64,000 nucleotides of DNA, taken from Leptospiraceae bacterium (lineage in GTDB: Bacteria; Spirochaetota; Leptospiria; Leptospirales; Leptospiraceae). A program made the position numbers and the translations under genes. The DNA is taken from contig JAGOHK010000011.1 of the NCBI GenBank assembly GCA_017996175.1, positions 1 through 64,000 of the forward strand, in the 5' to 3' direction. Under the pieces are notes generated by a model that saw only the letters and a list, made by a program, of their open reading frames with translations, searched no databases and was not told where the DNA came from. This document shows, piece after piece, positions 45,148 to 63,562 of the stretch; position 1 is the stretch's first letter; each line of letters starts with the position of its first letter.

Positions 45148-45254
45148 ATTTGTTTCAGAATCCGATAATGAATATATGATACACAATAAATAGGATGACA
45201 AAATAGGGATTTATAGGAAGTAATGTCCTTATAAACGATTTTTACAGATAGGTT

Positions 45255-46790
45255 ATGGAAGAAATAAAAAATCAACAAAATATGGCAGATATGGTTCAAT
45301 TGTCTGAGACAAGATTGGACGCTATATCGCTTGAAATAGCTAAAGATGCGATGTCGGCGAAAGTAATCGTTGATGTGACGGGCGTTAGCTTGAGAGACTT
45401 TTCTCCTACTATGATTTATAATTTAATTACGAATTCTAAATTAAGTGAAGATATTGTAAATTTTAGTGTTATTAAAGAAATCGTAGATGAAGTAAACAAA
45501 CGAAAAAAACAAGTGCTTCCAATTAGCCATGTTGCAAATCCGGATGATAATATCGTACGTCAGCAAATTGCAACTGGAATACCGATAGTCCATGGATTAG
45601 ATGGATGGGTAAAGTTTTATCATCCACATAATCAGAGAGTTGTGATTAAAGAAGATGGATCTGCCGATTTTCGAAATTTAGAAAAATTTATTTCCATAAA
45701 AAAAGATGATAAAATTGCAACCCTCTTTGCCGGTGTTCCTGGAAAACCCGGTAAGGATGTGTATGGAATGACACTCAATCCACCAGCAATTAAACGTCCC
45801 AAAATTACAATTGGGGCTAATATCATTACTACCAGCAATACATCTCCAGAGGAGCCAGAAAAAGTATATGTAGAATATACTTCTGCTTGCAACGGTGTTT
45901 TATTTTCAACTGATGAATCGGTTACTGTTTCACCCGAATTACGAATTGAACAAAGTGTTGGAATTTCAACGGGTAATGTCAAATACGATGGAACAGTCAA
46001 CGTAGTTGGTTCAATCGAAGATGGTTCAAAAGTGGAATGTGAGGGAAGTCTGAATGTAGCAGAGAATTTGGAATCTTCCGATATCACTGTAGGCAAAGAC
46101 TTATTTGTCAAAGGTGGAATAAAAGCAAAGGCAAAAGGATTAGTTAAGATTGCTGGTTCTGTAAAAGCTAAATTTATTGAAAATTCTATTTTAGAAGTAG
46201 GTGGGGATTTAATCATTGAAGGTTATATTTTAAATTCTAAAATATATTGTTTAGGTAGTATTGTAATGACTGGTCCTACTAGTGCAATTCTTGGATCGGA
46301 AATTATAGTGATGGGTGGATTGTCAACCTATAACTTAGGCTCTAATGCAGGAATAGATGTAGTTGTAGAGTTAGGTGCGCATTTTCAAAACGAAAGATTA
46401 TTCAATGAATTTCAAAATAAAGTAAAAACATCCGAAAAGGAAATGACAAATATTATTCCGCAAGTCCAACAAGCAAATAATATGATTAAACAACTTCGTG
46501 GTAAATTAGATGAAGAAAAGAAAAGGAAATTTACCGAATTGTTTGAGCTATTTAAACAAAAAAGTGCGAATCATAAATTTGTAACAGAAAAATTTGAAGA
46601 GCTCAAGACTTCTAGATTCAACCAAGAACAAATCAATATAGTTGTGAAGGGTGCTGCGTTTCCAGGTGCCGTGATTAAATACCGTCGTCAGATTGAAAAA
46701 ATTTCGGTTATGCAATCCGCATTTATGATGAGTTTTCTTCCCGGACAAGAAAGTGCTCCCATGACTGCGATTAATACAAAGAAAAAGTAA
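45255..46790 (+). CDS. FapA (DUF342) family protein
   Basis: 511 residues. N-terminal domain (about 1-110) followed by the DUF342 core: DGWVKFYHPHNQRVVIKEDG, NLEKFISIKKDDKIATLFAGVPGKPG, VYGMTLNPPAIKRP, and a beta-helix with repeats such as VNVVGSIEDGSKVECEGSL, VKGGIKAKAKGLVKIAG and GSIVMTGPTSAILGSEIIVM. Family members include the FapA polymer-forming membrane proteins; the C-terminus is a charged coiled coil (RKFTELFELFKQKSANHKFV). Membership in the family is sure, the role is not. Confidence 0.85.
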   Translation: MEEIKNQQNMADMVQLSETRLDAISLEIAKDAMSAKVIVDVTGVSLRDFSPTMIYNLITNSKLSEDIVNFSVIKEIVDEVNKRKKQVLPISHVANPDDNIVRQQIATGIPIVHGLDGWVKFYHPHNQRVVIKEDGSADFRNLEKFISIKKDDKIATLFAGVPGKPGKDVYGMTLNPPAIKRPKITIGANIITTSNTSPEEPEKVYVEYTSACNGVLFSTDESVTVSPELRIEQSVGISTGNVKYDGTVNVVGSIEDGSKVECEGSLNVAENLESSDITVGKDLFVKGGIKAKAKGLVKIAGSVKAKFIENSILEVGGDLIIEGYILNSKIYCLGSIVMTGPTSAILGSEIIVMGGLSTYNLGSNAGIDVVVELGAHFQNERLFNEFQNKVKTSEKEMTNIIPQVQQANNMIKQLRGKLDEEKKRKFTELFELFKQKSANHKFVTEKFEELKTSRFNQEQINIVVKGAAFPGAVIKYRRQIEKISVMQSAFMMSFLPGQESAPMTAINTKKK

Positions 46791-46880
46791 GTTTTTTTCC
46801 TAAAAATAAAAAATCTTTTTGAAAGACTTATCCTATTTTTATAAACTGACAATAAATTTATAAAAGAATAGGGATTTCTT

Positions 46881-48347
46881 ATGCAAATAAAAAAGAAGCT
46901 TGGCGTATTTATCGCATTAGTTTTAGCCGTATCATTAAATACGAGTTATATTTTCTCTCAGGAAACACAGCCTACACCGACCCCCACTACCGAAACGCAT
47001 TCGGCGGATCATGCAAAAGAGGGTGGGCATGTTGAGCACAAAGGAAATGATTTGGCTTTGTGGTCAGTAATTCCATTTGCAATTATTTTACTTTGTATTG
47101 CAATTCTTCCTATATCCTCGCATAACATTGCACATTGGTGGGAGCATAATAACAATAAGCTACTCATATCAGGTGTACTTGGCGGTGTTGCTTTCGGCAT
47201 ATTAGCCGCAAACGGTTGGATTGGAAAAATCTATCATACGCTTGTCTTTGAGTATGTGCCTTTCATCATACTTCTAGGTTCTTTATTTTATATCTCTGGT
47301 GGAATTGTTCTAAAAGGGGATATAAAAGCAACACCGGTTAACAACCTGTTATTCCTTCTTGTAGGTTCCTTCTTAGCTTCAATCATTGGAACTACGGGAG
47401 CATCTATGCTTCTGATTCGTCCTCTACTCAAAACGAACTCAGAAAGAAAACATGTAGTTCATACAGTAGTATTTTTCATTTTTATGGTTTCTAATATTGG
47501 TGGTTCCCTTACTCCACTCGGAGATCCTCCTTTATTTTTAGGGTATTTACAAGGGGTTCCATTTACCTGGACTTTCGGATTATTTCCTGAAATGATTTTT
47601 TCTATAGTAGTACTTTCTATCGTATATTTTATTTGGGACACAATCCAATACAAAAAAGAAACAAAGGTAGATATTAAAGAAGATAAGACACATGTAGAAC
47701 CAATCTCTCTTTCTGGGCAAGTGAACTTTTTGTGGTTATTTGGTATTGTCCTCTCGGTAGCTTTTTTAAATGAAAACTATATTCCTGCCATTAAGCATAA
47801 TCCGTATATTGCGTTTATCAGAGAAGTAGTTATGATTGCCTTAATTTTTGCTTCTAGGTTTACATCTGATCCAAAACTCAGAGAGCATAATAAGTTTACC
47901 CTTCATCCTATCCAAGAAGTAGCTTACCTTTTCATAGGAATTTTTATTACCATGATTCCTGCTTTGATTTTGCTGGAAGCACATGGAAAAGAGTTAGGTG
48001 TTACACAACCTTGGCAGTTTTTCTGGGCGACTGGAATTTTTTCCTCTGTATTAGATAATGCACCGACCTATCTGACATTTTTAAGTCTTGCTAAGGGTTT
48101 AACTGGGGCAACAGATGTTCATCAAATTCTTGCAAATCCTGCATGGGAGCAACTTCTAAAAGCAATTTCGGTAGGAGCGGTATTTATGGGTGCGAATACT
48201 TACATTGGAAATGCACCTAACTTCATGGTAAAATCAGTTGCCGAAGAAAACAAAATAAAAATGCCAAGTTTCGGTGGATATTTGTTATATTCCATTGGAG
48301 TATTGGTTCCGCTCTTTGGGTTAATTACGATTATCTTCTTTAGATAG
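46881..48347 (+). CDS. NhaD-type Na+/H+ antiporter
   Basis: 488 residues with N-terminal signal-like segment, a His-rich N-terminus (ADHAKEGGHVEHKG) and about 11 helices. The motif GGSLTPLGDPPLFLGYLQGVPFTW and FLWATGIFSSVLDNAPTYLTF-like segment identify the ion transporter superfamily (NhaD/ArsB-like). Likely exports Na+ in exchange for H+. TTGAAA-17-TAAACT at 46819-46847 is a possible promoter. The gene is single, followed by a 20-bp palindrome. Confidence 0.85.
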   Translation: MQIKKKLGVFIALVLAVSLNTSYIFSQETQPTPTPTTETHSADHAKEGGHVEHKGNDLALWSVIPFAIILLCIAILPISSHNIAHWWEHNNNKLLISGVLGGVAFGILAANGWIGKIYHTLVFEYVPFIILLGSLFYISGGIVLKGDIKATPVNNLLFLLVGSFLASIIGTTGASMLLIRPLLKTNSERKHVVHTVVFFIFMVSNIGGSLTPLGDPPLFLGYLQGVPFTWTFGLFPEMIFSIVVLSIVYFIWDTIQYKKETKVDIKEDKTHVEPISLSGQVNFLWLFGIVLSVAFLNENYIPAIKHNPYIAFIREVVMIALIFASRFTSDPKLREHNKFTLHPIQEVAYLFIGIFITMIPALILLEAHGKELGVTQPWQFFWATGIFSSVLDNAPTYLTFLSLAKGLTGATDVHQILANPAWEQLLKAISVGAVFMGANTYIGNAPNFMVKSVAEENKIKMPSFGGYLLYSIGVLVPLFGLITIIFFR

Positions 48348-48362
48348 GAATTTTTTTATAGA

Positions 48363-48382
48363 GGGCTGTGTATACACAGCCC
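48363..48382. repeat. 20-bp perfect palindrome after the antiporter
   Basis: GGGCTGTGTATACACAGCCC, a perfect dyad with no loop, 15 bases after the stop codon and 35 bases before the convergent CDF gene end. Possible bidirectional terminator or member of the palindromic repeats. Confidence 0.75.
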
Positions 48383-48417
48383 GTCGACGAACGTTACAAA
48401 CCCCAATCACAAAACAC

Positions 48418-49308
48418 TTAGTCTTTTGTATCATATTCCTCTTTCTTTTCGAACTCAAGGGTAGAATGTAGAATATTATGATGAAGTAGTTCATGGCGGA
48501 TATTCTTTTTTATTCTAGCAATACTTTTCCAATCTAGGTGGCTTTGAATTTTTACATGAGCAGTAAAAGCATTTAACGTTGTGCTGATAGCCCAGATATG
48601 AATGTGGTGAATATTGATTACACCTTCTATTGCTTCGATTTCTTTTTTGATATTCTTTAGATCAATTCCTTCTGGCACAGCATCAATCGACAGATTAAAA
48701 CTAGAACGCAACAGTTGAAAGGTGCTTAGAAAAACTATGATTGCAATTGCAATACTGATAACTCCATCTAACCAATACCAGTTAGTATATGCCATGAGTA
48801 AGCCCGCAATTAAAACACCTAGGGAGACTAACGTATCCGAAAGCATGTTTAGGTAAGCGCCTTTTATATTTAAGTCTCGATCTTTATCTTTTAAAAAAAG
48901 CCATGCAGTAATACCATTGATAACAATTCCGATTCCAGCTACAAAGGCTATTGGATTACCGTTAGTTACCGCTGGATTTTTAATTCTCTCAATACTTTCC
49001 CATATAATACTTCCCATCGCTAAAGCCAAAATAACTGCATTCAATAAGGACACTAAGATGGTTGTTTTCCTGTAACCGTAAGTATACCTTGTATTTGGCT
49101 TTATTTTTGCTAACCGAAATGCAAGTAGCGCCAATAGTAGACTAGCCACATCACTTAAATTATGCCCTGCGTCAGAAAGAAGGGCAAGTGAGTTATAGTA
49201 AAGACCACTTCCGGCTTCTACTAAAACAAAAATAATATTTAGTACAATCCCTATAATAAACTTGGTATTGAGATTACTGATTTTTTTAGAATGGTTGTGA
49301 CTATGCAT
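48418..49308 (-). CDS. Cation diffusion facilitator (CzcD/ZitB-like) metal exporter
   Basis: 296 residues from ATG at 49308 (AAAGGA seven bases before); the longer frame starts with a TTG at 49332. His-rich N-terminus (MHSHNHSKK), six helices and metal-site motifs LLSDAGHNLSDVASL (helix 2, H-x3-D) and LNMLSDTLVSLGVL (helix 5, where N-x3-D replaces the usual H-x3-D). C-terminal cytoplasmic domain with HHIHIWAISTTLNAFTAHVK. Probably exports Zn/Co/Fe-type ions; the Asn may change ion choice. Confidence 0.88.
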   Translation of the reverse strand: MHSHNHSKKISNLNTKFIIGIVLNIIFVLVEAGSGLYYNSLALLSDAGHNLSDVASLLLALLAFRLAKIKPNTRYTYGYRKTTILVSLLNAVILALAMGSIIWESIERIKNPAVTNGNPIAFVAGIGIVINGITAWLFLKDKDRDLNIKGAYLNMLSDTLVSLGVLIAGLLMAYTNWYWLDGVISIAIAIIVFLSTFQLLRSSFNLSIDAVPEGIDLKNIKKEIEAIEGVINIHHIHIWAISTTLNAFTAHVKIQSHLDWKSIARIKKNIRHELLHHNILHSTLEFEKKEEYDTKD

Positions 49309-49906
49309 TTTTGAATCCTTTTCTCTTCCCAATAACTTTCATCCTATTATCTATCCTTAAAAAAGCAAACCCAACAAATTCTTTTGCTACTATATATACT
49401 GATTCTAAATAATCTTTGCGCAAGACATTATAGAAAAATGAATCGGTATACATCACATACTGAGATGTTGGAACTAGACCCTTTCTACGCATTTGAATTG
49501 TTTTTATACGAAATTCAATGGTATACCAACTGCCAAAATAAATTACCCATTCGCTTAGAAAAGGGCTTCGCTATCGCTATTTTTGGCAATTGGGAATACC
49601 AAACTTTTTTTAAATGGGAAATTACTTTTGGCGTACGGTATATAAGAGCCTGTCTGAAAAGGATTATTGCAGGCTCTTGGAGCTTGACTTTTATTAATAG
49701 AATAACATCTTCTTGGACACGCTCTAAGAAAATAAACTGTCCTCTTTTTTCCGGCTATTATAAAAATAATATTGACTGTTAAAGTGAATTTTAATCTGTT
49801 ATATTAAACTGTTTATTTAATATATTGTATTAATTTTGTATAAATAATATCTATTTTCGTTATAACAGAATTCATTGGAAGTATTGAAAGGAAAAGGGAA
49901 TTGGGC
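49309..49906. other. Gene-free region with inverted repeats bordering the sulfur island
   Basis: Three repeat-like pieces: imperfect inverted repeat 49520-49600 (GGTATACCAACTGCCAAAATA / TATTTTTGGCAATTGGGAAT), a TTTTGGCGTACGGTATATA unit at 49626-49643 that closely matches CTTTTGGCGTTTGGTATA at 63491, and a hairpin 49644-49678 with 9-base arms AAGAGCCTG / CAGGCTCTT. Open frames there (49384-49782) begin with TTG, lack ribosome sites and cross the repeats. AT-rich leader of the acetyltransferase gene follows. Confidence 0.6.
49817..49833 (+). promoter_or_regulatory. Possible operator dyad upstream of the acetyltransferase gene
   Basis: TTAATA and TATTAA flank a 5-base centre (17-bp dyad), with AATATATTG shared with the 38-bp dyad upstream of the porin gene (55730-55767). 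Candidate common regulator site for the sulfur island. Chance is possible in such AT-rich DNA. Confidence 0.3.
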
Positions 49907-50818
49907 ATGATACAAGAAAATTTAGGCGATACTCTCAGAAAAACAGCGCATCATCTGTTTCATTCTGGAACTGAAATGTTTGAATATATTCCCAAATATG
50001 GTCATTCTCTTCCCTCGATGGATAATTTAAAAGAGATTGTAGAACTTTTACGAGCCATTCTATTTCCGGGTTACTTTGGAAAGACAATCACAAAGACTCC
50101 TTCACTTACCACTTCAACAGATGACAATTTAGTTCAGCTTTACGAATTGCTTTTTGAGCAAGTTCATAATGGGCTTTGCTTTAATCTAAAAGAGGATTCA
50201 GAAGAAGTTAAGGTTAGAGTTGGACAAATGACTTTAGATTTTATCCAATCTATTCCAGAAATTAGAAGACTTTTATCTACGGATGTAAGGGCAACATATA
50301 ATGCAGATCCAGCCGCGAAAAATATAGAGGAGATAATCTTTTGTTATCCTACAATTCGCGCAATGATTAATCACAGGTTTGCGCACCAACTTCTTAAATT
50401 ACAAGTTCCACTCTTGCCTAGAATTATTTCTGAAATGGCTCATTCTGAAACGGGAATTGATATTCATCCGGGGGCGGTAATTGGTGAATACTTTTGCATT
50501 GATCACGGAACAGGTGTTGTAATTGGAGAAACTTGTATCATTGGAAATAACGTTAGGCTCTACCAAGGTGTGACACTTGGTGCAAAAAAATTTTCACTGG
50601 ATGATAGCGGTAATCCGCTTAAAGATGAACAAAGGCATCCCATCATAGAGGATAATGTTGTTATTTATTCTAATGCAAATATTTTAGGGAGAGTAGTTGT
50701 CGGAAAAAATTCTGTTATTGGTGGAAATGTTTGGATTACGAATGATGTTCCGGCTAATTCTAAAATTACCCAAGCGAAAGTTGTACAAGAGCATTTTTTC
50801 TTTGGATCTGGAATTTAA
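49907..50818 (+). CDS. cysE: Serine O-acetyltransferase
   Basis: 303 residues from ATG at 49907 (TTG at 49901 is an alternative). Makes O-acetylserine from serine and acetyl-CoA, the committed step of cysteine synthesis. EpsC-type: a helical N-terminal half followed by a left-handed beta-helix with IDIHPGAVIGEYFCIDHGTG, VVIGETCIIGNNVRLYQGVTLG and HPIIEDNVVIYSNANILGRV. His in IDHGTG and IHPG are catalytic. First gene of the sulfur island, 49 bases before the first encapsulin gene; likely same transcript. No cysteine synthase gene is adjacent. Confidence 0.9.
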   Translation: MIQENLGDTLRKTAHHLFHSGTEMFEYIPKYGHSLPSMDNLKEIVELLRAILFPGYFGKTITKTPSLTTSTDDNLVQLYELLFEQVHNGLCFNLKEDSEEVKVRVGQMTLDFIQSIPEIRRLLSTDVRATYNADPAAKNIEEIIFCYPTIRAMINHRFAHQLLKLQVPLLPRIISEMAHSETGIDIHPGAVIGEYFCIDHGTGVVIGETCIIGNNVRLYQGVTLGAKKFSLDDSGNPLKDEQRHPIIEDNVVIYSNANILGRVVVGKNSVIGGNVWITNDVPANSKITQAKVVQEHFFFGSGI

Positions 50819-50866
50819 AGCGAAAAAGTATGCGAAAAATAAAAAATAAAACTAAGAGGCAAAATA

Positions 50867-52330
50867 ATGTCTGATAATTTATTGCAACGTAGCGTAACTA
50901 CTTCGGTTGCCAGAAATCTGGCTAATACGACTAAGACTCCACCGCAAATGATGTCTGTTACTCCGAGGTGGTTACTTCGTCTTCTCCCCTGGGTGCAGGT
51001 AGAAGGTGGTACATATCGAGTTAACCGAACTAGAATAGAGCTTAAAAAAGCAGAGAGAGTTGAATTAAATGTTGTAAACGGAGTTGTCTTTTTGGCGTTT
51101 AATCCACAATCACTCCGTAGTGTCCCCGTTTTTTCAAAAATCCCGAATTATATTCTCGCAGAAATAGCGAGTAAATTCAAGACCGAAGAAGTCTCTCTCG
51201 GAAATAAACTTGTAATTGAAGGAGAGGATAAAAATAAGTTTTTTATTATAGCACAGGGACAAGTGGAGGTTTTAAGTAAAGGTGTCCATGGAAGTGACCT
51301 TAGAATTGCACTTCTGACAGAAGGAGAATACTTTGGAGAGTTGGGACTAATATCCGATAAGCCTTCTGATGTAACCGTTAGAACGACTACCCCTTGTAAG
51401 CTCCTTACTCTTTCAGGAAAAGACTTAGATAGAATTTTAAATGAATTTCCAAATCTACGTCAGGATTTTCAGAAAGCTATTGATGAACATATTGAACTCT
51501 TATCTTCAGTAAACAAATACGGAGAGCGTAATATTGATTTGGTGTCAGGGTTTGCTGAGAACGTTGAAATTCCTGAGACATATATTGATTATTCTGAAAG
51601 TCCGAGAGAGTATTCTTTAAGTGCAATTCAAACAGTGGTAAGAGTCCATACGCGGGTCTCTGATTTATACAATAACCCTTACAATCAACTAGAAGAGCAA
51701 ATGCGTCTAACGATTGAAGGAATCAAAGAACGTCAAGAATGGGAATTAATTAATAGTAAAAAATTTGGTTTACTCCATTCGGTTGCTCCTGCATTTCGAA
51801 TCAGCACAAGATACGGTGCACCAACACCAGATGATCTTGATGAACTTCTTGCATTAGTTTGGAAAAAGCCTAGCTTTTTCTTGGCTCACCCCAAAGCAAT
51901 TGCTGCCTTTGAAAGAGAATGCACATGGAGAGGAGTTCCACCGGTGAATTCAGAGATATTCGGGACTCCAATTATTCTTTGGCGCGGAATACCGATTATC
52001 CCGACGGATAAACTGGAAGTAAAAAGTAATTATTTCTCGAATCAATGGTTAGGAACTACTAGCATTTTACTGCTTAGAGTAGGTGAAGATGATCAAGGAG
52101 TTGTGGGGCTACACCAAGCAGGAATTCCGGGTGAAATTTCTCCAAGCCTATCAGCACGACTCATGGGTCTCGACAAACTTGGAGTAGCCTCTTATCTACT
52201 GACTCTCTACTCTTCCGCAGCAGCACTTACCGACGATGCAATTGCGGTATTAGAAAATGTAGAAGTAGGATATTATCACAATTATCAAAATAAAAACTCA
52301 AACTATTTCAGCGATGGATTAGGAATATAA
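50867..52330 (+). CDS. Family 2 encapsulin shell protein with inserted cNMP-binding-type domain, copy 1
   Basis: 487-residue nanocompartment shell protein with an HK97-like phage-capsid fold. N-terminal arm and start [20 protein letters not shown], residues 1-87; a cyclic-nucleotide-binding-like domain inserted at about 88-205 ([24 protein letters not shown]); then the SrpI-type shell core 210-487 with [67 protein letters not shown] and VGYYHNYQ near the end. The insertion puts it in the class called Family 2B. In the PBC motif the phosphate-binding Arg is replaced (PSDVT). Followed after 16 bases by a near-copy, and then the desulfurase cargo gene. Assembles in the cytoplasm. Confidence 0.9.
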
Positions 52331-52346
52331 CAAAAAGGAAAAAAAC

Positions 52347-53786
52347 ATGTCAGATAATTTATTACAACGTAGCGTAACAACTTCTGTAGCAAGAAATCTT
52401 GCGAACACAACTAAGACTCCTCCTCAGATGATGTCTATTACCCCTCGCTGGCTACTCAGTCTTCTCCCCTGGGTACATGTGGAAGGTGGAACATATCGAG
52501 TGAATAGGACTAAAGTAGAACTCAAAAAAGCAGAGCGAGTAGAGCTTAACTTTAAAGATGGAAATGTTTCTTTTAATCCACAGGCTTTAAGATCAGTTCC
52601 TCTTTTCTCTAGATTCCAAGACGAGATCATCAATCGAATGGCATTTCGCTTTAAAACAGAAGAAGTGACACTTGGAAATAAACTCGTAGTAGAGGGTGTA
52701 GACAAAAATAAATTTTTCATCATAGCACAAGGACAAGTGGAAGTTTTGAGTAAAGGCGTTCATGGAAGTGATCTTAGAATAGCACTTCTTACGGAAGGAG
52801 AATACTTTGGGGAAATTGAATTAGTCTCAGATATTCCATCCGATGTAACAGTTCGAACGATTACACCTTGTAAACTCCTAACTATTTCAGGAAAAGATCT
52901 AGATGAAATACTAAGTGAATTCCCAAATTTAAAAGATGATTATAAGCGAGCAATTGATAAACATATTGAACTTCGATCAACCGTAAATAAATACGGAGAG
53001 CGTAATATTGATTTGGTGTCAGGGTTTGCTGAAAACGTTGAAATTCCTGAGACTTTTATTGATTATTCTGATAAGCCGAGAGAATATTCTCTCAGTGCAA
53101 TTCAAACAGTAGTTCGAGTTCACACAAGAGTCTCTGATTTATATAATAATCCTTACAATCAATTAGAAGAGCAAATGCGACTAACGATTGAAGGAATCAA
53201 AGAGCGACAAGAATGGGAGTTGATTAATAGTAAAAAATTTGGTCTACTACATTCCGTTGACCCTGCTATGCGAATTAGCACAAGGTATGGTGCCCCAACA
53301 CCTGATGATTTAGATGAGCTACTTGCACTTGTTTGGAAACAACCCGCTTTCTTTTTGGCACATCCAAAAGCAATTGCAGCATTTGAAAGAGAATGCACAT
53401 GGAGAGGGGTACCACCAGTAACCGCTAATCTATTCGGAACACAAGTGATTACATGGCGGGGAGTTCCGATTATCCCCTGCGATAAATTAGAAGTTAAAAA
53501 TACCAATCTCTCTAATCAATGGTTTGGGACTACTAGTATTTTGCTTCTCCGGGTGGGGGAAGAAAATCAAGGAGTTGTAGGTTTACACCAAGCAGGAATT
53601 CCGGGTGAAATTTCTCCGAGTTTATCCGCTCGCCTGATGGGACTCGACAACTTAGGAGTAGCCTCTTATCTACTTACATTGTATTCTTCAGCAGCAGTAT
53701 TAACAGATGATTCACTTGCAGTACTAGAAAATGTAGAAGTAGGTTACTATCACGATTACCAAAATAGAAACTCTTTACCAAAATAA
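52347..53786 (+). CDS. Family 2 encapsulin shell protein with inserted cNMP-binding-type domain, copy 2
   Basis: 479-residue paralogue of the upstream shell protein, sharing long identical blocks (first 29 residues; [60 protein letters not shown]). Differences concentrate where the N-arm meets the inserted domain: two residues shorter near 70-80 and [16 protein letters not shown] for [16 protein letters not shown]. The tail is shorter, lacking the final NYFSDGLGI. The PBC motif again reads IPSDVT without Arg. Own ribosome site AAAAAGGAAA. Two tandem shells imply mixed capsids or two capsid states. Next gene, 17 bases on, is the desulfurase. Confidence 0.9.
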
Positions 53787-53802
53787 AACTTGAGAGAATA
53801 CA

Positions 53803-55524
53803 ATGGAACAATTTGACCCAAATACAATTGCAAGGCTTGCATCTCGGATCTACAATGAAGTTCCGGGTGCATCTACAATTCCTGAAAATCCGATTGATGC
53901 GCATATTGCAAATTATGCGCATCAAGATTCAGTAAAGAATCATGGAAATTCGGTTGTAGAAAATGGATACTCTTCTGAAAGTTTGAACCTAGATAAAATA
54001 AAGGAAATCTTTGTAAAACAAGGTAATTTAGCGGAGTTAAAAAAAAGCACTTCAGATTTTCATTTCCCATCTACGGGAAGTAAAACAAGTGATAATTATT
54101 TGAGTAAGTCCAGCGCTAATCTAAAAACACAGCAATCGCTTGCTGATAATGGAAAAAGCCATTCCAGTCTAAAGTCCTTTGTAAAAAGTATTCAAGAAGA
54201 TCATCATAAATATCCTGGCGGAATTTTTACTGGAAGTTTAGAGAACTGTAAACTGTTTCCTAATTTGAATCAGGTTTCCCAAAAGCAATCAGAGATTTAT
54301 TCCAGTAGAGCATTTGATGTGAATGAAATTAGAAAAGACTTTCCTGTGCTACATCAGACTATTCATGGTAAACCGCTTGTTTGGTTTGATAATGCAGCGA
54401 CTACACAAAAACCAAAGTCAGTGATTGATGCAATCAGTAATTTCTATTCCCATGATAATTCGAATATCCATAGAGGAGCACATACATTAGCCGCTCGGGC
54501 TACGGATGCGTTTGAAGAAGCGAGGGAGAAGGTTCAGAAGTTTATCAAGGCATCTTCTACTTCTGAGATTATTTTTGTGCGAGGGACAACTGAAGCGATT
54601 AACTTAGTTGCACAGACTTATGGGCGCAAATTTCTTCAGCCTGGAGATGAAATTATTCTCTCACAAGCAGAGCATCACGCGAATATTGTACCCTGGCAGA
54701 TAATTGCAAAGGAAAAAGGCGCAGTCATTCGAGTCATTCCTTTAAATGACCGTGGAGAAGTGATTTTGTCGGAATATGAACGTTTGCTAGGACCTAGAAC
54801 AAAATTAGTATCTCTAACACAAGCCTCAAACAGCTTAGGAACCATTCTTCCTGTTCAGGAAATGACAAAAACCGCAAAGAAATATGGTGCAAAAGTTTTA
54901 ATCGATGGAGCACAGTCTGTGGCACATATTCCGGTTAACGTTCAAGAACTTGGTTGTGACTTCTTTGTATTTTCCGGTCATAAGATTTTTGGTCCTACTG
55001 GAATTGGAGTTGTTTACGGTAGACAAGAAATTTTAGAACTAATTCCTCCCTGGCATGGTGGCGGAAATATGATTAAAGATGTGACTTTTGAAGAAACCAT
55101 TTATAGTGATATACCTGCAAAGTTTGAAGCGGGAACGCCTAACGTTGCAGATGCAGTAGGACTTGGGGTTGCACTTGACTATGTGAATCGACTCGGTTTA
55201 GAAAATATTGCAAAATACGAACACTCTCTTTTGGAGTATGCAACAGACGGTCTTTCTTCTATTAAAGGCTTGCGGCTAATAGGAACTGCCCGTGAAAAAG
55301 TGGGAGTTCTATCTTTCGTATTGCAAAATAAATCCACAATCGAAGTAGGAAAACTTTTAGATTTGGAAGGGATCGCTGTGCGCGCAGGTCATCACTGTGC
55401 ACAACCTTCTCTACGTCGGTATGGAGTGGAAGCCACTGTGCGTCCTTCTCTTTCTTTTTACAATACGATAGGCGAAACAGATAGACTTGTTTCGGCAGTT
55501 CGTCGTATTGCAGGAAGTTTTTAG
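53803..55524 (+). CDS. SufS-type cysteine desulfurase with N-terminal encapsulation extension (predicted cargo)
   Basis: 573 residues. Residues about 170-573 are a complete group II SufS-like PLP enzyme: AEHHANIVPW (His291), IDGAQSVAHIP (Asp368), SGHKIFGPTG (PLP Lys394) and RAGHHCAQP (catalytic Cys532). It takes sulfane sulfur from cysteine and leaves alanine. Residues 1-168 form an extra low-complexity region rich in Ser, Asn, Lys and His, absent from normal SufS (about 410 residues). Such a disordered N-terminal domain is what loads cysteine desulfurases into Family 2 encapsulins. Short motifs in it, DPNTIARLASRIYNEVPG near the start and YPGGIFTGSLENCK near 137-150, are likely shell-binding parts. 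No SufBCD nearby. Ends in a strong terminator. Confidence 0.92.
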   Translation: MEQFDPNTIARLASRIYNEVPGASTIPENPIDAHIANYAHQDSVKNHGNSVVENGYSSESLNLDKIKEIFVKQGNLAELKKSTSDFHFPSTGSKTSDNYLSKSSANLKTQQSLADNGKSHSSLKSFVKSIQEDHHKYPGGIFTGSLENCKLFPNLNQVSQKQSEIYSSRAFDVNEIRKDFPVLHQTIHGKPLVWFDNAATTQKPKSVIDAISNFYSHDNSNIHRGAHTLAARATDAFEEAREKVQKFIKASSTSEIIFVRGTTEAINLVAQTYGRKFLQPGDEIILSQAEHHANIVPWQIIAKEKGAVIRVIPLNDRGEVILSEYERLLGPRTKLVSLTQASNSLGTILPVQEMTKTAKKYGAKVLIDGAQSVAHIPVNVQELGCDFFVFSGHKIFGPTGIGVVYGRQEILELIPPWHGGGNMIKDVTFEETIYSDIPAKFEAGTPNVADAVGLGVALDYVNRLGLENIAKYEHSLLEYATDGLSSIKGLRLIGTAREKVGVLSFVLQNKSTIEVGKLLDLEGIAVRAGHHCAQPSLRRYGVEATVRPSLSFYNTIGETDRLVSAVRRIAGSF

Positions 55525-55563
55525 TGCCTCATTCCTCTTGAGGAAAATTTTTATTTACCCCTT

Positions 55564-55593
55564 GAGGGAGGAGTAAAATCCCTCCCTTTTTTT
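55564..55593 (+). terminator. Rho-independent terminator of the encapsulin operon
   Basis: GGGAGG, nine-base loop, CCTCCC, followed by seven T, 40 bases after the desulfurase stop codon. It separates the encapsulin genes from the porin gene. Confidence 0.8.
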
Positions 55594-55729
55594 ACATGTT
55601 TTTGCCCCAAAAACTCCAAAAATAAGTATAAACTTCACTGTTCAATATAACATATATTTTTCATTAAAACATACTAAATTCTCGAAAATACATTAAAATT
55701 ATTCATTTTTATGTTTATTTTTCTATTAT

Positions 55730-55767
55730 TTCAATAAAATATCCAATATATTGAATATTTTGTTGAA
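55730..55767 (+). promoter_or_regulatory. 38-bp operator-like dyad upstream of the porin gene
   Basis: TTCAATAAAATATCCAATA followed by its near-exact reverse complement, two mismatched pairs in 38 bases. It overlaps a possible -35 (TTGAAT, 55763-55768; a -10-like TTTATA lies about 17 bases on), so it could be a repressor or activator site for the porin-sbp pair. Confidence 0.5.
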
Positions 55768-55818
55768 TAAAATAGAGTCTTGTATTTTATAGTAAAAAAT
55801 TCCACAAGGAGGAATAAG

Positions 55819-57717
55819 ATGAAAGAAACGACGAATAAAATTTTAGTAGGAGGTTTCTTCATTTGTGTTGTTACATTTGGACTTTCCTCCCAGGAAGCTA
55901 AGAAGCCAGCAAAGGCTGCAAAGGAAGCGGTAAATATAGATAATTCCCAACCAAAGGAAGCTCCCGATAAGGAGGCAAAGGATAGTCCAAATCTAAATTT
56001 AGATCCGCCTCCGGAAGTAAAATATGTTGAGCAGCCGAACGATGGAAAAGGTATTCCTGAAATTCAAGCAGAGTTAGCGAAAGAAGAGCCATACAAAAGT
56101 CCATACAAAGGAAAACTTTCTGGGGAGCTAATGAGAAGTATGCTCCTTTCACCTGAGCACCAAGATGCTGTTCGTAAAGCAGATAGACTTTGGTTTGGAG
56201 ATATTTTTCGAATTGGTTTTCAAGCGCGACCTCGTTTTGATTATTCTTTCAATGGAGACTTTGATAAAAGAACGCAAGACGGAAGAAATTTTGGAACACA
56301 AAATTCACAAGTTTGGTTTATTGTAGATCCAACTCCTTATGCTACTGTTAAAGTAACGATCCAAGATGTGCGAGTTGCAGGCGGAGATCAATCTAGAAAG
56401 GATGGTCAACTTGGTTACTTGGGACAAGCGAACTCTGCAGGTGTGGAACTTTCCTCCGCACCTTCAGCAACTCAATCAGTAAATATTCAAAACCGCACTG
56501 GACTTAGAGAAGGTTTTGTTCTACTAAAAAATTTAGTAGATGGGGTTGAGTTTGTTGTAGGAAGACAAATTTTTGGATTTGGGGATAATAGATACGTCGG
56601 AGGAAGAAACGATGGACAAACTGGAAACTCTTTTGATGGATTACGCGCAAAGTATACAAGTAAGTATTTAACTACAGAGGTTTTTACTTCTATCATTGCA
56701 GAAGAAAGTAACGCAGGGGCTGGTAACAATACTGCAAATGGTCAGAAGCGAGGAACGGTTAATGACACTTACCTCTCTGGACTTTATAATACTCTAAAGT
56801 TTGAAGATTTTCTGATAGATTTATATTTTTTCAATGTAGACAGAAAATGGGAACAATCTTTAACTCGAACTCCTACATCGAGTCAAGACAGGACGAGACA
56901 AAGAGATGATTTAAATACAGTTGGGTTTCGTCTGAGTAACCGCACTGACGGAAATCGTTTGCCGAAGACCAAGGCATGGGATTGGACAATTGAACATTCC
57001 ATGCAATTCGGATTTAATGGGGAAAGAGGAAATGCAGATTGGGATACGTTAGGCGTAACTGTAAATGGTAGACCCAATGGACAACGCATTTACTCTCAGA
57101 GAAAAGAATACGATGCAAGGTTTTTCCTAGCGCAAACCGGTTATACTTTCTTTGATCGTTTTAGAGTAGGAATTCAATACTCATTCGGATCAGGGGACTC
57201 CAGTCGCTCTGACTCTAGAGTGAAAACCTACGATGCATCCTTTGCAACAAGATCTGGTGGATTTCCCTATTTTGATTCAGGCAATGGAATTGTGAATGCA
57301 ACTTTTTGGTCAAATACAAGCACTAAGTCCGTACACTTAATGTGGAATACAGAGAAGTTTGGGCGGTTTATTGCTGTAGCCTATGACATCCAAAAGGCAC
57401 AAATGAATGATGCCTGGTATGGTTCAGGTGGAGCGGTTAACACAGGGTTAAGTTATGAAAATTCTACAGGTGGAGCATTCGGTGGAACAAACAAACTTGG
57501 GGAAAAAATGGGCACAAGATTATTCCATGAATACGATTTTATCTGGCAGTATTATTTGAAAGACTATGTTTCTATATGGGCTGGGGCTTCTTATTTAGTA
57601 GCGGGAGATGCGGTAAGAGGAGTAAGAACTAACCCTTTTGCGGGAGCGATTAATGATCGTTATACCCTCGATCCAAAGTCTTATAGTTTTTTCTTATTCG
57701 TTCAGTTTGCAATGTAA
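55819..57717 (+). CDS. Outer-membrane beta-barrel porin (alginate-export-like family)
   Basis: 632 residues from the ATG at 55819, with AAGGAGGAATA in front; an in-frame TTG at 55780 is rejected. Signal peptide [20 protein letters not shown]; Lys/Pro/Ala/Glu-rich linker; then a beta barrel from about 120 ([57 protein letters not shown]) to a terminal Phe-x-Met (FLFVQFAM), the usual outer-membrane end. Resembles alginate-export/DUF1302-type porins. Its position before a sulfate-binding protein points to uptake of sulfur-containing anions or organosulfur compounds. Confidence 0.8.
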
Positions 57718-57741
57718 TAAATTTAATCATAGGAGATTAAT

Positions 57742-58746
57742 ATGAAAATTAATTTAGTTAAATCATTAGTATCCACAATCCTTCTCTTGGCGGGATTACA
57801 ATCAGTTGCCGCAAAGGACATTACTCTTCTAAATGTATCTTATGACCCGACACGAGAACTTTACGCAGAATACAATAAAGTATTCGCAAAGTATTGGAAA
57901 GGTAAGTCAGGTGATGATGTAAGAGTCAATCAATCGCATGGAGGTAGCGGTAAACAAGCACGATCCGTTCTAGATGGGCTAGAAGCAGATTTTGTGACAT
58001 TGGCTCTCTCTTATGACATAGATATTATCGCGTCTAAGGGTCTACTTTCCCCGGACTGGCAAAAAAGTTTACCGAATAATAGTTCACCTTATACTTCTAC
58101 AATTGTTTTTGTAGTTAGAAAAGGAAATCCTAAGAATATAAAAGACTGGGATGATTTAATAAAATCGAAAGTGGGGGTAATCACGCCTAACCCCAAGACA
58201 AGTGGCGGAGCTAGATGGAACTATCTTGCTGCTTGGGGATATGCTGCTAAAAAATTCAATAACGATGATTCTAAAATTAGAGATTTCATAAAAACTCTTT
58301 ATAAAAATGTTCCAGTTCTAGATTCGGGTGCCCGTGGTTCTAGTACCACATTTGCACAAAATGGAATCGGGGATGTATTTCTTTCCTGGGAGAATGAAGC
58401 ATTTTTAATTTTAGAAGAGATGGGAAAGGATAAATTTGAAATTATTAGACCGTCTATTAGTATTTTGGCAGAACCACCTATTGCTGTGATTGAAAAAAAT
58501 ACGGAGAAACATGGAACTACCGAAGTAACAAAGGCATACCTAAAATCTCTCTACTCTGAACCAGCACAAGAAATTATAGCAAAACATGGTTATAGACCTA
58601 GAAGTGCGACAATTCTAAAAAAATATGCAGATAAATTTCCGAAACTAGATTTAATCACCGTGGATTCTAATTTTGGTGGTTGGCATAAAGCGCATAAGGA
58701 TCATTTTGCGGATGGAGCTAGTTTTGATAAGCTGTATGTGAAGTAA
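57742..58746 (+). CDS. sbp: Periplasmic sulfate/thiosulfate-binding protein
   Basis: 334 residues. Signal peptide ending in SVAAKD; then the Sbp/CysP family blocks [52 protein letters not shown] and [20 protein letters not shown], which bind the anion. The C-terminal part also matches ([20 protein letters not shown]). Delivers sulfate or thiosulfate to a CysTWA transporter, whose genes are not in the window. AGGAGATTAAT precedes the ATG; 24 bases from the porin gene, so one operon. Confidence 0.92.
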
Positions 58747-58754
58747 AGAAAAAA

Positions 58755-59060
58755 AACTGCCACCGATGGACAATGCTGTCAAGTTAAGGGAAACGAAGAA
58801 GAGGTTAACCACGAAGAGCACAGAGAACACGAAGAAAAGAAAGAGATTCTTGATAAAATCCTTCGCGAGCTTCGTGTCCTTCGTGGTGAAAAACTCTTAA
58901 TTGTACAGCATTGACCGATGGACACCTATAAAAGAACGATAAAAAATAATACAGATTCAAATCAAATTATGAATACTCAAGAACTATCGTATTTTTTATC
59001 AGTGCTCTTGGTGTCTACACGTCTGGACTGGGCTCAGTGCAGGTCGGTGGTAATCTTAAA
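58755..59060. repeat. Dispersed TIR-like repeat, copy E, interrupted by a nested element
   Basis: Starts near CTGCCACCGATGGACA and ends GTCGGTGGTAATCTTAAA, same family as copies A-D. Inside are ATAAAAGAACGATAAAA and a second element (58773-58913). The right end supplies the last codons and the stop of the histidine kinase gene on the minus strand. Confidence 0.75.
58773..58913. repeat. Nested element with inverted ends and an 11-bp direct duplication
   Basis: Ends AATGCTGTCAAGTTAAG and CTTAATTGTACAGCATT are imperfect inverted repeats; the interior has ACCACGAAGAGCACAGAG and its inverse TTCGTGTCCTTCGTGGT. ACCGATGGACA occurs on both sides (58762-58772 and 58914-58924), which looks like a target-site duplication made when it entered copy E. 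About 141 bp; no coding capacity. Confidence 0.65.
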
Positions 59061-61064
59061 AGACAGAGGCAAAGTGACAATAAACTCTGTTCCTTTGTCA
59101 TAGTTATCGTTGAGTTGAATTTCACCATTTAGCATTTTGACAATATCTCGACAAAGAGGAAGACCAAGACCAGTGCCAGCTTCACCTGCTGTCCCCCTAA
59201 AGCTAGTTTTAATAACATGCGAAAATAGATTGGCGCGAATTTCTTGTGGTATACCAACTCCTGTATCTTTAACGGATAATATATATTTGTCGTCATTTCG
59301 AATTCTGCTGATAGAAATCATATCTCCCGCATTTGAAAATTTAATAGAATTAGAAACTAGGTTTAAAATGACTTCTTGGAGTAACGCTTCATCTGTTTGT
59401 ATTTGGTCATCCTCTGAGACAAAACTCAGAAGTTGAATTTCTTTTTCTCTGACTCGACCGAGCATAATATTAAAAATCTTATCAATAACTTTCGATGGAT
59501 TGCAGGTCTGAATATTGAGTTGGATGCTTCCAGAATTTGTCTGACTGAATTGTAAAATTTTTTCGGTCATTTCTAGTGAGTGTTCAATTGATTTAATGGC
59601 TAACTCTAAATAGCTTTTAGATAATTCTTCTTCCGACTCGTCGTCTGATTCCATCGAACTTTGGATTAACATTTTCGCATTTCCAATTGGCGATCTGAGA
59701 TCGTGAGATAATAGAGAAATAAATTGATCCTTTAATTCATTTGATTTTACGGCGGCAATTTTTTCGTCCATTATTTCTTTGGTTCTTTCTGCTATTCTAT
59801 TTTCTAGGTCTTCATTGATTTTCTTCAAGTCTGAACTTAAAAGTTCGACATCCTGAAAGGCTTTTACAAATCGAATTAGTAAATAGAGAGATTGGCTGAG
59901 AACAACAAAGATTACCCCGTAATGCGCTATATAGCTAGTATGTAATACTTCTGTCGTATTAAGTATGTCGTTAATTGTGCAAATGAGCATGAAACTAAAT
60001 CCAATCAAAATAATAAAAGCATTTTCTTTCTTTTGATAAACTGCAAATGCAACTATTAGATAGGATATTATTAATTCTAAAATAAATATGGGCAAATAAA
60101 TATTAACCAGATTTGAGTAAAACACAGTTTGAGTAAAAACAGTAACAAAAGAAAATCCAATCCCGATTAAATAGCTGATCGTGATTATCCACTTTCGAAG
60201 TTTCATAAAAAACATATTACTCAAAAATTGTAGTGCAAGAGGCATTACTAAAAAGAACGTTAAATATTCAATAGCCACATAAATTGGATAACCAACCGGG
60301 AGGTAATCTGCTAAAAGTTTTTCTCCGGTGCTTGCAGTTCTTAGAAAAATGCAGATAACTAAAAAAGTAAATTGAATGGAAAGAGTTTCGCTTTTTCGAA
60401 TTAGATATAAACCAATATGGTAAAGAATTACAAAAAATAAAAAACCTAGAATGAAATCATCCCGACTACGAATAGTTTGAACATAAGACAAAAGACCCAA
60501 CTCTGTTCCAAAGTATATGTTATATAAAAATCCTCCTTTTTTATGATGAAAATTAGAAACTTGAACTACAATATCTAAAGTATTCTTCGATGTAGAAAAA
60601 GAAGCGAAAGATGGACGTGTATCTGGAATTGCGTTTGTTATATCTTTTCCTGTTATTCCTATACAATTTAATTCCAAGTCATTGATGAAAACTTTACAGT
60701 TTGTCAATGGCTTCATTCGAATTGCAAATATGGGATAATGTTTATTTTGCGGCAATAGAATTTTTAGTCGATAAGTAGCGAATCCTATACCGGCTAACGT
60801 TTGACCGTCAATAACTTTACCATTCCAAGTGGAAGGTAGATCAATATAGCTGGGTTTGAGAGATGCTATGTCTTCCGGCGAATAAAGTCCATTCCAGTAG
60901 AATTCCCAGTTTCCTTCTAGACTTATTACAGGCTCTTTTTCATAATTCCAGTTTTGTAAATCAAGAATTCCATCTTTAGCTTTGTAGGTAGTGTAATCTC
61001 TTTTGCACCCAGCAAAGAAAAGTAGTGGAACGCAAATCAGGATTAAAATGATTTTATTTTTCAT
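59034..61064 (-). CDS. 7TMR-DISM sensor histidine kinase lipoprotein
   Basis: 676 residues. Lipobox FAGC (Cys20), 7TMR-DISM extracellular domain, seven membrane helices (about 195-395), coiled coil, HisKA with LSHDLRSPIGNAKM and a HATPase domain (NLVSNSIKFS, KDTGVGIPQEI, GTGLGLPLCRDIV). The receptor part resembles that of the cyclase at 3.0 kb (ILDLQNWNYEKEPVISLEG versus ILDLSQWDFEKDGVINLDG), so similar ligands may feed cAMP and phosphorelay pathways. The last residues (KITTDLH) and stop codon are encoded in the repeat copy E. Confidence 0.9.
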   Translation of the reverse strand: MKNKIILILICVPLLFFAGCKRDYTTYKAKDGILDLQNWNYEKEPVISLEGNWEFYWNGLYSPEDIASLKPSYIDLPSTWNGKVIDGQTLAGIGFATYRLKILLPQNKHYPIFAIRMKPLTNCKVFINDLELNCIGITGKDITNAIPDTRPSFASFSTSKNTLDIVVQVSNFHHKKGGFLYNIYFGTELGLLSYVQTIRSRDDFILGFLFFVILYHIGLYLIRKSETLSIQFTFLVICIFLRTASTGEKLLADYLPVGYPIYVAIEYLTFFLVMPLALQFLSNMFFMKLRKWIITISYLIGIGFSFVTVFTQTVFYSNLVNIYLPIFILELIISYLIVAFAVYQKKENAFIILIGFSFMLICTINDILNTTEVLHTSYIAHYGVIFVVLSQSLYLLIRFVKAFQDVELLSSDLKKINEDLENRIAERTKEIMDEKIAAVKSNELKDQFISLLSHDLRSPIGNAKMLIQSSMESDDESEEELSKSYLELAIKSIEHSLEMTEKILQFSQTNSGSIQLNIQTCNPSKVIDKIFNIMLGRVREKEIQLLSFVSEDDQIQTDEALLQEVILNLVSNSIKFSNAGDMISISRIRNDDKYILSVKDTGVGIPQEIRANLFSHVIKTSFRGTAGEAGTGLGLPLCRDIVKMLNGEIQLNDNYDKGTEFIVTLPLSFKITTDLH

Positions 61065-61346
61065 ACATTTAAAACTAGGTTTAGAATTAGAGCATGTATT
61101 GCAAATTAAAAAATACCTAGGTGCTTAGCTTCGCAAAATCCGGGATCTACCTTGGTTGAGTAGGTAAAGTTTAATTTATGAATTATAAAATCTTGTTAAT
61201 CCTGTCTAAAAACTCTTCTAGACATTCCATGGTGGTCGTATGAGCGAAGCGAAAATTGGTGATATGTACAACAAACAAAATATCTAAAATAAACACAGAT
61301 ACAAATTGAAATAGTATCTGTGTCTGTAAATTCTTACGAAATGTAT

Positions 61347-62447
61347 TTATGCAGCAGGTGTAGCCGCAGCATTTTTCTTTTTGTAGTAACCGTAACCAAC
61401 AGCACCTACAATTAAGAGTAACCAGATGTACCAGAATTGAACTAGTATGCTAGTAATTGCAATAATTACAAAGGCTACCACTCCCAATGCAAATCGTAAC
61501 ACCGAACTTCCCATTGTTCCAACGAATGGAATAAAATCTAAAAGCATTGTAACAGGACCAATCAAAAGCGAAAGACCTGACCAAAGCATAATGAATGCAC
61601 AAAATCTACCAATCCATTTCATTGTGGAATCATCGGACTTAATCGCTTTCATTGTTTGCGCATAATCGCCAACACTCGCACTCATGAATGATTCATCTTT
61701 ATAAGTGAATTTCCCAAGTGTATCCCCATTTAGTTTGCCTAGAAAAGTCATATCCCCTTCCGGAATCGGTGTAGCACTTACAGTAACTCTTTCGCAACCT
61801 TCAAATTCGCTGTTGGCACAGTTCGCATTTTCATACAAATAATTTCCAGAGCTAACAAAACCGTTTGTATTGATTTCACTATCAGCCGGTTTTGAACTTG
61901 GTACAGAAGAAGTAAAATCTGTATCTGCCAGATTTACTTTATAAGACTTTCCATCACTTGCAAGCATACCACCAGTAGCCACATTGGTGTCATTTTTTAC
62001 ACGTTTTTGGTGGAATGGTTTTGATTTACAAGCAGGTAATTTAAAGGAAGACGGATTATCTGGGTTTGATGTCCACTTGAGTTTACACTCTCTTACCTTC
62101 TTTTTGTTGCTACCATCGCCTTCCGTTCTTTCTGTTTCATCCCAAGCGTATACTTCCGAGCTTTCGCTTACACTTATGTAATTTCCTTGCTTTACAAACA
62201 AACTACCAACAGGCTGTGCTGTTAATTTTCCAGTGATATATACTGGTTTGCCTTCTTCCATTTGTGTAACTGGTTTTGCATTCTTAAACGCGTCCCCCGC
62301 TTGTGTACAAGTCTCTACTTTGAAAACTACAAAGATAGAGAGAGGAATTAACGCGAATCCTGTCAGTATCCCTTTGAGCGAATCGCCGAATTGCGAAAAA
62401 AATCCTACTGATTCACTAGATGACATTCCGTCACTACTAATTGCCAT
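61347..62447 (-). CDS. TMEM43/LUMA-like membrane protein
   Basis: 366 residues. Start MAISSDGMSSSESVGFFSQF; first helix GFALIPLSIFVVFK, a large non-cytoplasmic domain, and three C-terminal helices (FCAFIMLWSGLSLLIGPVTM; VLRFALGVVAFVIIAITSIL; YIWLLLIVGAVGYGYYKKK). The layout and the YITGKLTAQPVG region match TMEM43 (DUF1625) proteins, found in animals and some bacteria. Function unknown. AGGAGATACC precedes the ATG. Confidence 0.75.
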   Translation of the reverse strand: MAISSDGMSSSESVGFFSQFGDSLKGILTGFALIPLSIFVVFKVETCTQAGDAFKNAKPVTQMEEGKPVYITGKLTAQPVGSLFVKQGNYISVSESSEVYAWDETERTEGDGSNKKKVRECKLKWTSNPDNPSSFKLPACKSKPFHQKRVKNDTNVATGGMLASDGKSYKVNLADTDFTSSVPSSKPADSEINTNGFVSSGNYLYENANCANSEFEGCERVTVSATPIPEGDMTFLGKLNGDTLGKFTYKDESFMSASVGDYAQTMKAIKSDDSTMKWIGRFCAFIMLWSGLSLLIGPVTMLLDFIPFVGTMGSSVLRFALGVVAFVIIAITSILVQFWYIWLLLIVGAVGYGYYKKKNAAATPAA

Positions 62448-62686
62448 AGGTATCTCCTAAATTAAATTTATGTGGGTGTAATAGTGTTAGATGTTATAAA
62501 TAAGACAAGTAGTTTTTTTGAGCAGGATTAGAATGATTCGCAGGATTTTCAGGATTAAGAAACTTCATTTTAAAGGATTTTTCTTCATTGAAAACCATGT
62601 GAGATTTAGTATAATGATTAGCAGTATTTATAGAATTAATATTCTGCAAAATGTAATTTGTTAGAGAATAATTAATGATTTCATAC

Positions 62687-62863
62687 TTATTTCTTCTTAG
62701 TCACGAAACGTAAATTCTTCAATTTATATTTTTTTATTATTTCTTGAGTGTTCGCACGAATCTTTTTTAAGTCAATTTTCTGTTTTGCCATTTTGTGGCG
62801 AATTGTATGTAGCTCCCACAAGGCAAAGTCTTCTTCTTTTTTGTAATCATTAGATGTTTCCAT
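62687..62863 (-). CDS. Small predicted antitoxin of the PIN-domain toxin
   Basis: 58 residues, too short for normal gene tracks. Starts METSNDYKKEEDFALWELHT and is basic and helical to the end (FVTKKK). A very strong ribosome site, TAGGAGGAGATTCC, lies before the ATG and inside the end of the PIN gene; the two overlap by 14 bases. Size and position fit an antitoxin. Family not recognised. Confidence 0.65.
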   Translation of the reverse strand: METSNDYKKEEDFALWELHTIRHKMAKQKIDLKKIRANTQEIIKKYKLKNLRFVTKKK

Positions 62864-63320
62864 AGGAATCTCCTCCTAAATTTTCAATGCTAACTATTTC
62901 TAAAGTATGATAATGATTTTCTAAATTGATTTGATGAATTGCATTCATAGTTTTAAGATTTACTATATGCCTGAAATTCCAAGAAACGATTGCATCAAGT
63001 TTATTAACTGTTGCGGTTGCAATATGGATCGAATCGTTGACTTCATTTTTAATAATTTGATTTCGGTATTTCTTTGCTAAATCTAAAACTTCTTCTTCAA
63101 TTTCTATAATGACTGGGGAAATAGAATCAAGTAAAGTAAACATTTTATCTTTCAAATCTTGATTAGTATTATTTTCAATTTCTTGTAGAATTAAATCGGA
63201 AACGAAAATTTCGTAAGCTGAAATATTATTTTTAATCCATTTGACTGTAACTAATTGTCTTAGTGGTTTTGATATATCAAAGTACGCGGATAATATAGAT
63301 GTATCTAAAAATAATTTCAT
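62850..63320 (-). CDS. PIN-domain toxin (VapC-like ribonuclease)
   Basis: 156 residues from ATG at 63320 (the open frame begins with a TTG at 63329). Mg-binding acidic residues of the PIN fold: FLDTSILSAYFD (first Asp), EIENN in helix 3, NDSIHIATATVNKLDAIVSWN (third and fourth acids). These toxins cleave RNA and are neutralised by a small antitoxin, here encoded directly downstream, a toxin-first order. Confidence 0.82.
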   Translation of the reverse strand: MKLFLDTSILSAYFDISKPLRQLVTVKWIKNNISAYEIFVSDLILQEIENNTNQDLKDKMFTLLDSISPVIIEIEEEVLDLAKKYRNQIIKNEVNDSIHIATATVNKLDAIVSWNFRHIVNLKTMNAIHQINLENHYHTLEIVSIENLGGDSYGNI

Positions 63321-63448
63321 TTGAGTCAATTATTCTTGAACTAATTCTATTTGTCAAACTCATTCAATAATTTAAAACAAACATTCGGAGTTATATACCC
63401 TTCGCCAGAAGTAATTACCCACAAGGACTTTATTTAAATAGCATTTGG

Positions 63449-63508
63449 TATAGACCAAACGCACTTTTCTAATTTCAAAATAGGTATTTTCTTTTGGCGT
63501 TTGGTATA
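63449..63508. repeat. Inverted repeat of the GGTATA/TTTTGGCG family
   Basis: ACCAAACGC (63454-63462) and its exact reverse complement GCGTTTGGT (63497-63505) with GGTATA-like outer ends; the right part CTTTTGGCGTTTGGTATA nearly equals 49626-49643. Lies in the 242-base gap between the PIN gene and the rhomboid gene. Confidence 0.6.
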
Positions 63509-63562
63509 AATAAAACTTGTATTATTTGCAAATGATTTAGCATTACAATTTTTTAAAGAAAA

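Follow-up and report, generated by a model that had tools for sequence, protein, structure and literature searches.

Results

Gene content of the locus

The window analyzed here is a stretch of 64,000 nucleotides from a Leptospiraceae bacterium (contig JAGOHK010000011.1 of assembly GCA_017996175.1). Within it, six consecutive genes on the plus strand encode a serine O-acetyltransferase (CysE), two shell proteins with an insert, a SufS enzyme with an extended N terminus, a porin, and a sulfate-binding protein, just where a sequence-only reading had placed them. The first gene, cysE2 (49901 to 50818, with a probable ATG at 49907), encodes an accessory, EpsC-like serine O-acetyltransferase, which scores 161 bits against the EpsC-type model NF041874 (cutoff, 150) and 169.8 bits against TIGR01172, under the cutoff of 210.65. 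It is followed by enc1 (50867 to 52330) and enc2 (52347 to 53786), which encode Family 2B encapsulin shells of 487 and 479 amino acids, and by the SufS-type cysteine desulfurase gene, cd (53803 to 55524). The last two genes encode an outer membrane porin of the PF13372 (Alginate_exp) family (55780 to 57717, with a probable ATG at 55819) and the substrate-binding protein (SBP) of a sulfate ABC transporter (57742 to 58746), which matches the sulfate-binding family NF008022 with 508 bits.

Two other origins of the locus were rejected. The shells agree far better with curated encapsulin models and cargo synteny than with a phage capsid or prophage, and an assembly chimera is contradicted by the flanking genes, whose synteny with a congener extends through cysE2. 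An Rfam scan of positions 45000 to 64000 gave one weak trpB-like match (E value, 0.16; under the gathering score), which was dismissed. Positions 58768 to 58916, between sbp and a histidine kinase gene, hold a short MITE-like element whose inverted repeats are nested (arms of 21 nt outside and 30 nt inside, TTAACCACGAAGAGCACAGAG...). Sequence evidence for the spirochete affiliation comprised a match to the RktP family that fell below threshold and the best match of a kinase near the locus, a distant one, to Leptospira replicons.

A pair of Family 2B shells

Against the Family 2B model NF041163 (encap_f2b; cutoff, 400 bits), Enc1 scores 577.7 and Enc2 596.4 bits, and both proteins match PF19307 (SrpI-like) and PF00027 (cNMP_binding). 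The PF00027 insert sits between the N-arm and the remaining SrpI-like domain, at residues 112 to 193 of Enc1 (51200 to 51445, plus strand) and residues 110 to 191 of Enc2 (52674 to 52919, plus strand). Family 2A is marked by the lack of this insert, which both proteins possess, although the shell domain alone passes the 2A model too. Enc2 aligns over its full length with the solved 2B shells 9bje, 9bhu, and 9bix, and its shell domain aligns with SrpI (6x8m). Judged by model scores and inserts, both shells are clearly Family 2B members, the type that the sequence-only reading had assigned to them. An AlphaFold model of Enc2, based on 20 sequences, was set aside for its low confidence (pTM, 0.38).

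The shells had also been called near-duplicates. The proteins are indeed 84.6% identical, but the genes, separated by 16 bp, are only 60 to 93% identical in DNA per 30-codon block (the short last block has 67%), which means that the copy was not made recently. In the tree, Enc1 and Enc2 are sisters (support, 96/94); Enc1 is the more diverged copy (branch length, 0.21) and Enc2 the slower-evolving one (0.091). Several shell pairs from planctomycetes also cluster as pairs (L020, L022, and L023; L018/L019; L025/L027; L028/L030), so duplication, or gene conversion, has recurred. Local duplication or gene conversion, seen in a number of planctomycete operons too, gave rise to the window pair. In all 11 planctomycete tandem pairs, which are not all independent of each other, the upstream shell is less like the window shells than the downstream shell is.

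Because its two 2B shell genes are no more than 10 kb apart, the locus counts as a two-component 2B system. The first diagnostic motif of such systems (TVWK in Enc1 versus RRRK in Enc2) is absent, as both window shells have LVWK; at motif 2, the two copies have different interior loops (VNSEIFGTP versus VTANLFGTQ).

In the known CRP, PKA, and HCN domains, an arginine of the cassette binds the cyclic phosphate. The cassette of the window inserts contains GEYFGE and retains the glutamate, and the position that we take, from these domains, to be that of the canonical arginine is occupied by serine (PSDVT) in Enc1 and Enc2 as well as in most of their close relatives. The 2B domains tested by others do not bind cyclic nucleotides (PMC12407261). 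The window inserts likely have a ligand other than a cyclic nucleotide.

The desulfurase and its N-terminal tail

The desulfurase scores 558 bits against TIGR01979 (sufS; cutoff, 475) and 798.9 bits against the encapsulin-cargo model NF041166, 1.1 bits short of the cutoff of 800. Its catalytic domain (54307 to 55524) contains Lys394 (SGHK), expected to bind PLP, and Cys532 (GHHCAQP), the expected persulfide carrier, both of which are invariant among the relatives. Solved SufS chains begin to align at about residues 168 to 171, so the 168-residue N-terminal extension (53803 to 54306) noticed in the sequence-only reading is real, and the N terminus is of the cargo type. Another, tail-less SufS-like protein of the genome matches the desulfurase only from residue 169.

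The extension is disordered and predicted to be a cargo-loading domain; in a Family 2A system, loading is driven by a disordered tail (PMC8049743). Its conserved N-terminal helix motif, FDPNTIARLASRIYNEVPGAST (residues 4 to 25; 53812 to 53877), is a candidate shell-binding element. With a matrix built from 12 relatives and excluding the window, it scores 23.5, a value reached by none of 2,000 shuffles (maximum, 5.8). AlphaFold predicts a helix at residues 6 to 19, with low confidence over most of the remaining tail. Near the N terminus, the phylum's Family 2A desulfurases have a similar-looking stretch (e.g., PSAAEIAALASAYFPEF in L010), which has a low matrix score; on inspection, no part of the window tail clearly corresponded to the second tail motif of Family 2A.

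Two transcription units

All six genes had been taken to form a single sulfur island. However, a probable intrinsic terminator, a stable, G+C-rich hairpin followed by U7 (55564 to 55595, plus strand; z = -2.36 for the stretch), lies immediately 3' of the desulfurase gene, and porin-sbp has its own upstream region. Scans for promoter and terminator consensus sequences gave results near chance level. From its sequence features, the "island" is two transcription units, cysE2-enc1-enc2-cd, ending at the terminator-like hairpin, and porin-sbp. Two congeners carry the latter genes as well: in G100, an SBP 84% identical to that of the window lies beside a porin and the counterpart of the window's histidine kinase gene, and in G029 a porin homolog adjoins the SBP. 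No 2B shell was found in either of them. Hence, porin-sbp has the appearance of a native sulfate locus, with the encapsulin operon as its neighbor.

We group cysE2 with the encapsulin genes because the genome encodes a second CysE elsewhere (48% identical to CysE2 over residues 127 to 289) and because a CysE gene lies directly upstream of the 2B shell gene in 15 relatives from the Chlorobiota and Bacteroidota. A cysE2 ortholog (79% identical) occupies the same position beside the same CDF gene in the congener G217, whose contig ends inside cysE2.

A site shared with sulfate assimilation genes

Both units are preceded by operator-like sites on the plus strand: TATATTAAACTGTTTATTTAATATATTGTATT at 49800 to 49831, with the core TTTAATATATTG at 49816 to 49827, lies 5' of the encapsulin operon, and the near-palindromic TATCCAATATATTGAATA at 55740 to 55757 lies 5' of porin-sbp. 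Combined, the two give the pattern TYYAATATATTG, which precedes the cysE2 unit, porin-sbp, cysT-A-W, and cysI-H-D-N-G and has no other match in the 5.4-Mb genome; the sulfate operons had been selected for their function prior to the search for the site. The four sites are 59 to 79 bp away from the probable start codons (for cysE2, the ATG is about 80 bp from the core). The looser pattern TNYAATATATTGNNNW occurs at seven places genome-wide; it falls twice in the window, once each upstream of cysT-A-W and cysI-H-D-N-G, and three times within coding frames. When the 150-bp upstream stretches were shuffled with their dinucleotides preserved, the site appeared in 9 (cysE2), 8, 1, and 12 of 5,000 shuffles for the four sites. 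A first palindrome, TATATTAAA-n7-TTTAATATA, was discarded since it fits the site poorly, the shared core being shifted by 16 bases.

The same core precedes cysIHD, cysTAW or cysWTA, and porin-SBP or SBP genes in three congeners. When a matrix derived exclusively from congeners was run over the 64-kb window, its two highest-ranking places were the porin-sbp and encapsulin sites, although the encapsulin site, the weakest of the set, scores 15.6 and thus barely exceeds the best window background of 15.1. No intact operator-like site was found upstream of cysE2 in G217. Overall, a sulfate assimilation regulon with a shared site in this genus is well supported, and the encapsulin operon is a probable member of it, with predicted coregulation. 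The link to sulfur limitation drawn in the sequence-only reading thereby gains backing, which is weakest at the shell operon itself.

Two side observations concern the same gene sets. A second sulfate-binding protein gene near cysT-A-W (L139:13039-14052, in G000:C14) lacks TYYAATATATTG upstream. The cysI-H-D genes of G100 (L183, G100:C105:1-4500) are 99 to 100% identical to those of this genome (L140), and most other genes shared with G100 are about 70 to 90% identical; the high identity may reflect recent exchange or cross-contamination of bins.

Occurrence in other bacteria

Among 393 genomes sampled from the phylum, this genome is the only one with a 2B shell, in line with the rarity in spirochetes that had been anticipated. 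Seven other genomes of the phylum (L010 to L016) have insert-less, 2A-like shells adjoining desulfurases; these seem to be independent of the 2B acquisition described here. The closest relatives (about 82%) reside in the same tandem operon in Planctomycetota, and the next relatives are found in Thermodesulfobacteriota, Margulisiibacteriota, Chlorobiota, and Bacteroidota. The location of the nearest relatives in other phyla and the rarity within the phylum fit horizontal transfer, by which, we infer, the encapsulin operon was acquired.

A desulfurase gene directly follows the 2B shell gene in 62 of the 64 retrieved loci with sufficient downstream sequence, a share that does not hold for 2B shells generally because the search was seeded with the window's desulfurase-linked shell. 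Twelve retrieved loci have two shells, and SBP genes are near 7 of the relatives' 78 loci. In some Chlorobiaceae metagenome-assembled genomes (MAGs), two 2B shell loci lie on different contigs (L042/L048 in CAINOC01, L051/L055 in CAJAJL01, and L049/L053 in JABDHL01), and two-shell systems without tandem genes may thus exist. In the Syntrophobacteraceae MAG PLSV01, one contig (L026) ends and another (L061) starts within a 2B shell gene, which looks like an assembly break between tandem shells.

Discussion

A 2B shell combined with a desulfurase had seemed uncommon to the sequence-only reading, a view that is not supported. Family 2B-desulfurase operons number 199 in nine phyla, with a serine O-acetyltransferase gene among their top-enriched accessory genes, and two-shell operons and disordered cargo tails have been reported as well (PMC8346489). 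Desulfurase is one of five cargo types in two-component 2B operons (PMC12407261), the loci retrieved here tell the same story, and NCBI annotation shows a 2B shell adjoining a SufS-type desulfurase in Kitasatospora. Two findings had been named as speaking against an unusual system, shells grouping with Family 2A and numerous identical tandem desulfurase loci on record; the latter largely applies, whereas the shells are 2B. Hence, the 2B-desulfurase combination, the CysE partner, and two-shell desulfurase operons are already known, and our work adds the operator-like site and the recurrent, asymmetric shell duplication. None of the papers searched ties together encapsulins, spirochetes, and cysteine desulfurase.

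The operon shares the 2B shell, the SufS-type desulfurase with a disordered tail, and the accessory serine O-acetyltransferase with the published desulfurase operons (PMC8346489), from which it differs by its two shells, its operator-like site common with sulfate assimilation, and its spirochete-type host. The Planctomycetota operons (e.g., L018, L019, and Schlesneria MAGs) also have two adjacent 2B shells, with 82% identity to Enc2, and then a desulfurase; however, cysE is not directly upstream, and the shell pairs were apparently duplicated separately. Streptomyces lydicus likewise has adjacent 2B shells, with Enc1 upstream and Enc2 downstream, but its cargo is a putative xylulose kinase, and in the two-component set of that study the Enc1s cluster apart from the Enc2s, unlike the sister pair of the window (PMC12407261). 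The Family 2A system SrpI/CyD of Synechococcus elongatus also has a desulfurase cargo, loaded via a disordered N terminus, and is induced by sulfur starvation; it differs by its single shell gene and by the lack of a cNMP-type insert (PMC8049743).

We consider it quite probable that cysE2-enc1-enc2-cd is a horizontally acquired, two-component 2B desulfurase encapsulin operon with a co-assembled shell and a tail-loaded cargo, in which sulfur is held or passed on. Enc1 and Enc2 would co-assemble into a small icosahedral shell, which would take up the desulfurase via its disordered N-terminal tail. The enzyme would remove sulfur from cysteine inside the shell, and the sulfur would be held there or released in a controlled way. 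CysE2 would provide more O-acetylserine, with which captured sulfide would become cysteine for the desulfurase pathway. The operon would be induced along with sulfate uptake and reduction when the sulfur status changes.

The same compartment might be built differently, with the shells forming separate particles or Enc1 being a mere minor modulator of an Enc2 shell. The greater divergence of the upstream copy in every tandem pair examined would suit this arrangement, as would the inability of S. lydicus Enc1 to assemble alone when Enc2 can (PMC12407261). We regard it as possible but distinctly less likely than co-assembly, since Enc1 and Enc2 hardly differ over much of the HK97 domain, which favors mixing, and the two S. 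lydicus shells, the sole case tested in the literature, co-assemble into mixed shells (PMC12407261). Slightly less likely again is a compartment that mainly delivers sulfur for Fe-S cluster assembly or cofactors instead of storing it. The enzyme is of the SufS type, and sulfur-accepting rhodaneses are overrepresented in the vicinity of related operons (PMC8346489); however, the window operon has neither rhodanese nor SufE, the genome encodes the tail-less SufS-like paralog, and the operator-like site ties the operon to sulfate assimilation. A joint island that spans sulfate uptake through storage and was acquired in one piece is improbable despite the adjacency, the common strand, the similar operator-like sites, and the SBP genes near a minority of the relatives' loci, given the terminator-like hairpin between the units and the porin and SBP genes of the shell-less G100 and G029.

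A broader speculation, which we think unlikely to hold, is the following: the cNMP-type domains of desulfurase-linked 2B shells might have been retuned from cyclic nucleotides to a sulfur metabolite and might gate the shell, lineages might repeatedly evolve a second, faster upstream subunit adjusting this gate, and transcription might be set by the regulator of sulfate assimilation.

In summary, two-shell 2B desulfurase encapsulins extend to a group in which a single sampled genome has a 2B shell. The operator-like site is a concrete DNA element that may link such a compartment to the uptake and reduction of sulfate, and simple expression and binding assays can now address when 2B desulfurase shells are produced and for what purpose. 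The repeated duplication with a faster-evolving upstream copy hints at the reason for having two shell subunits.
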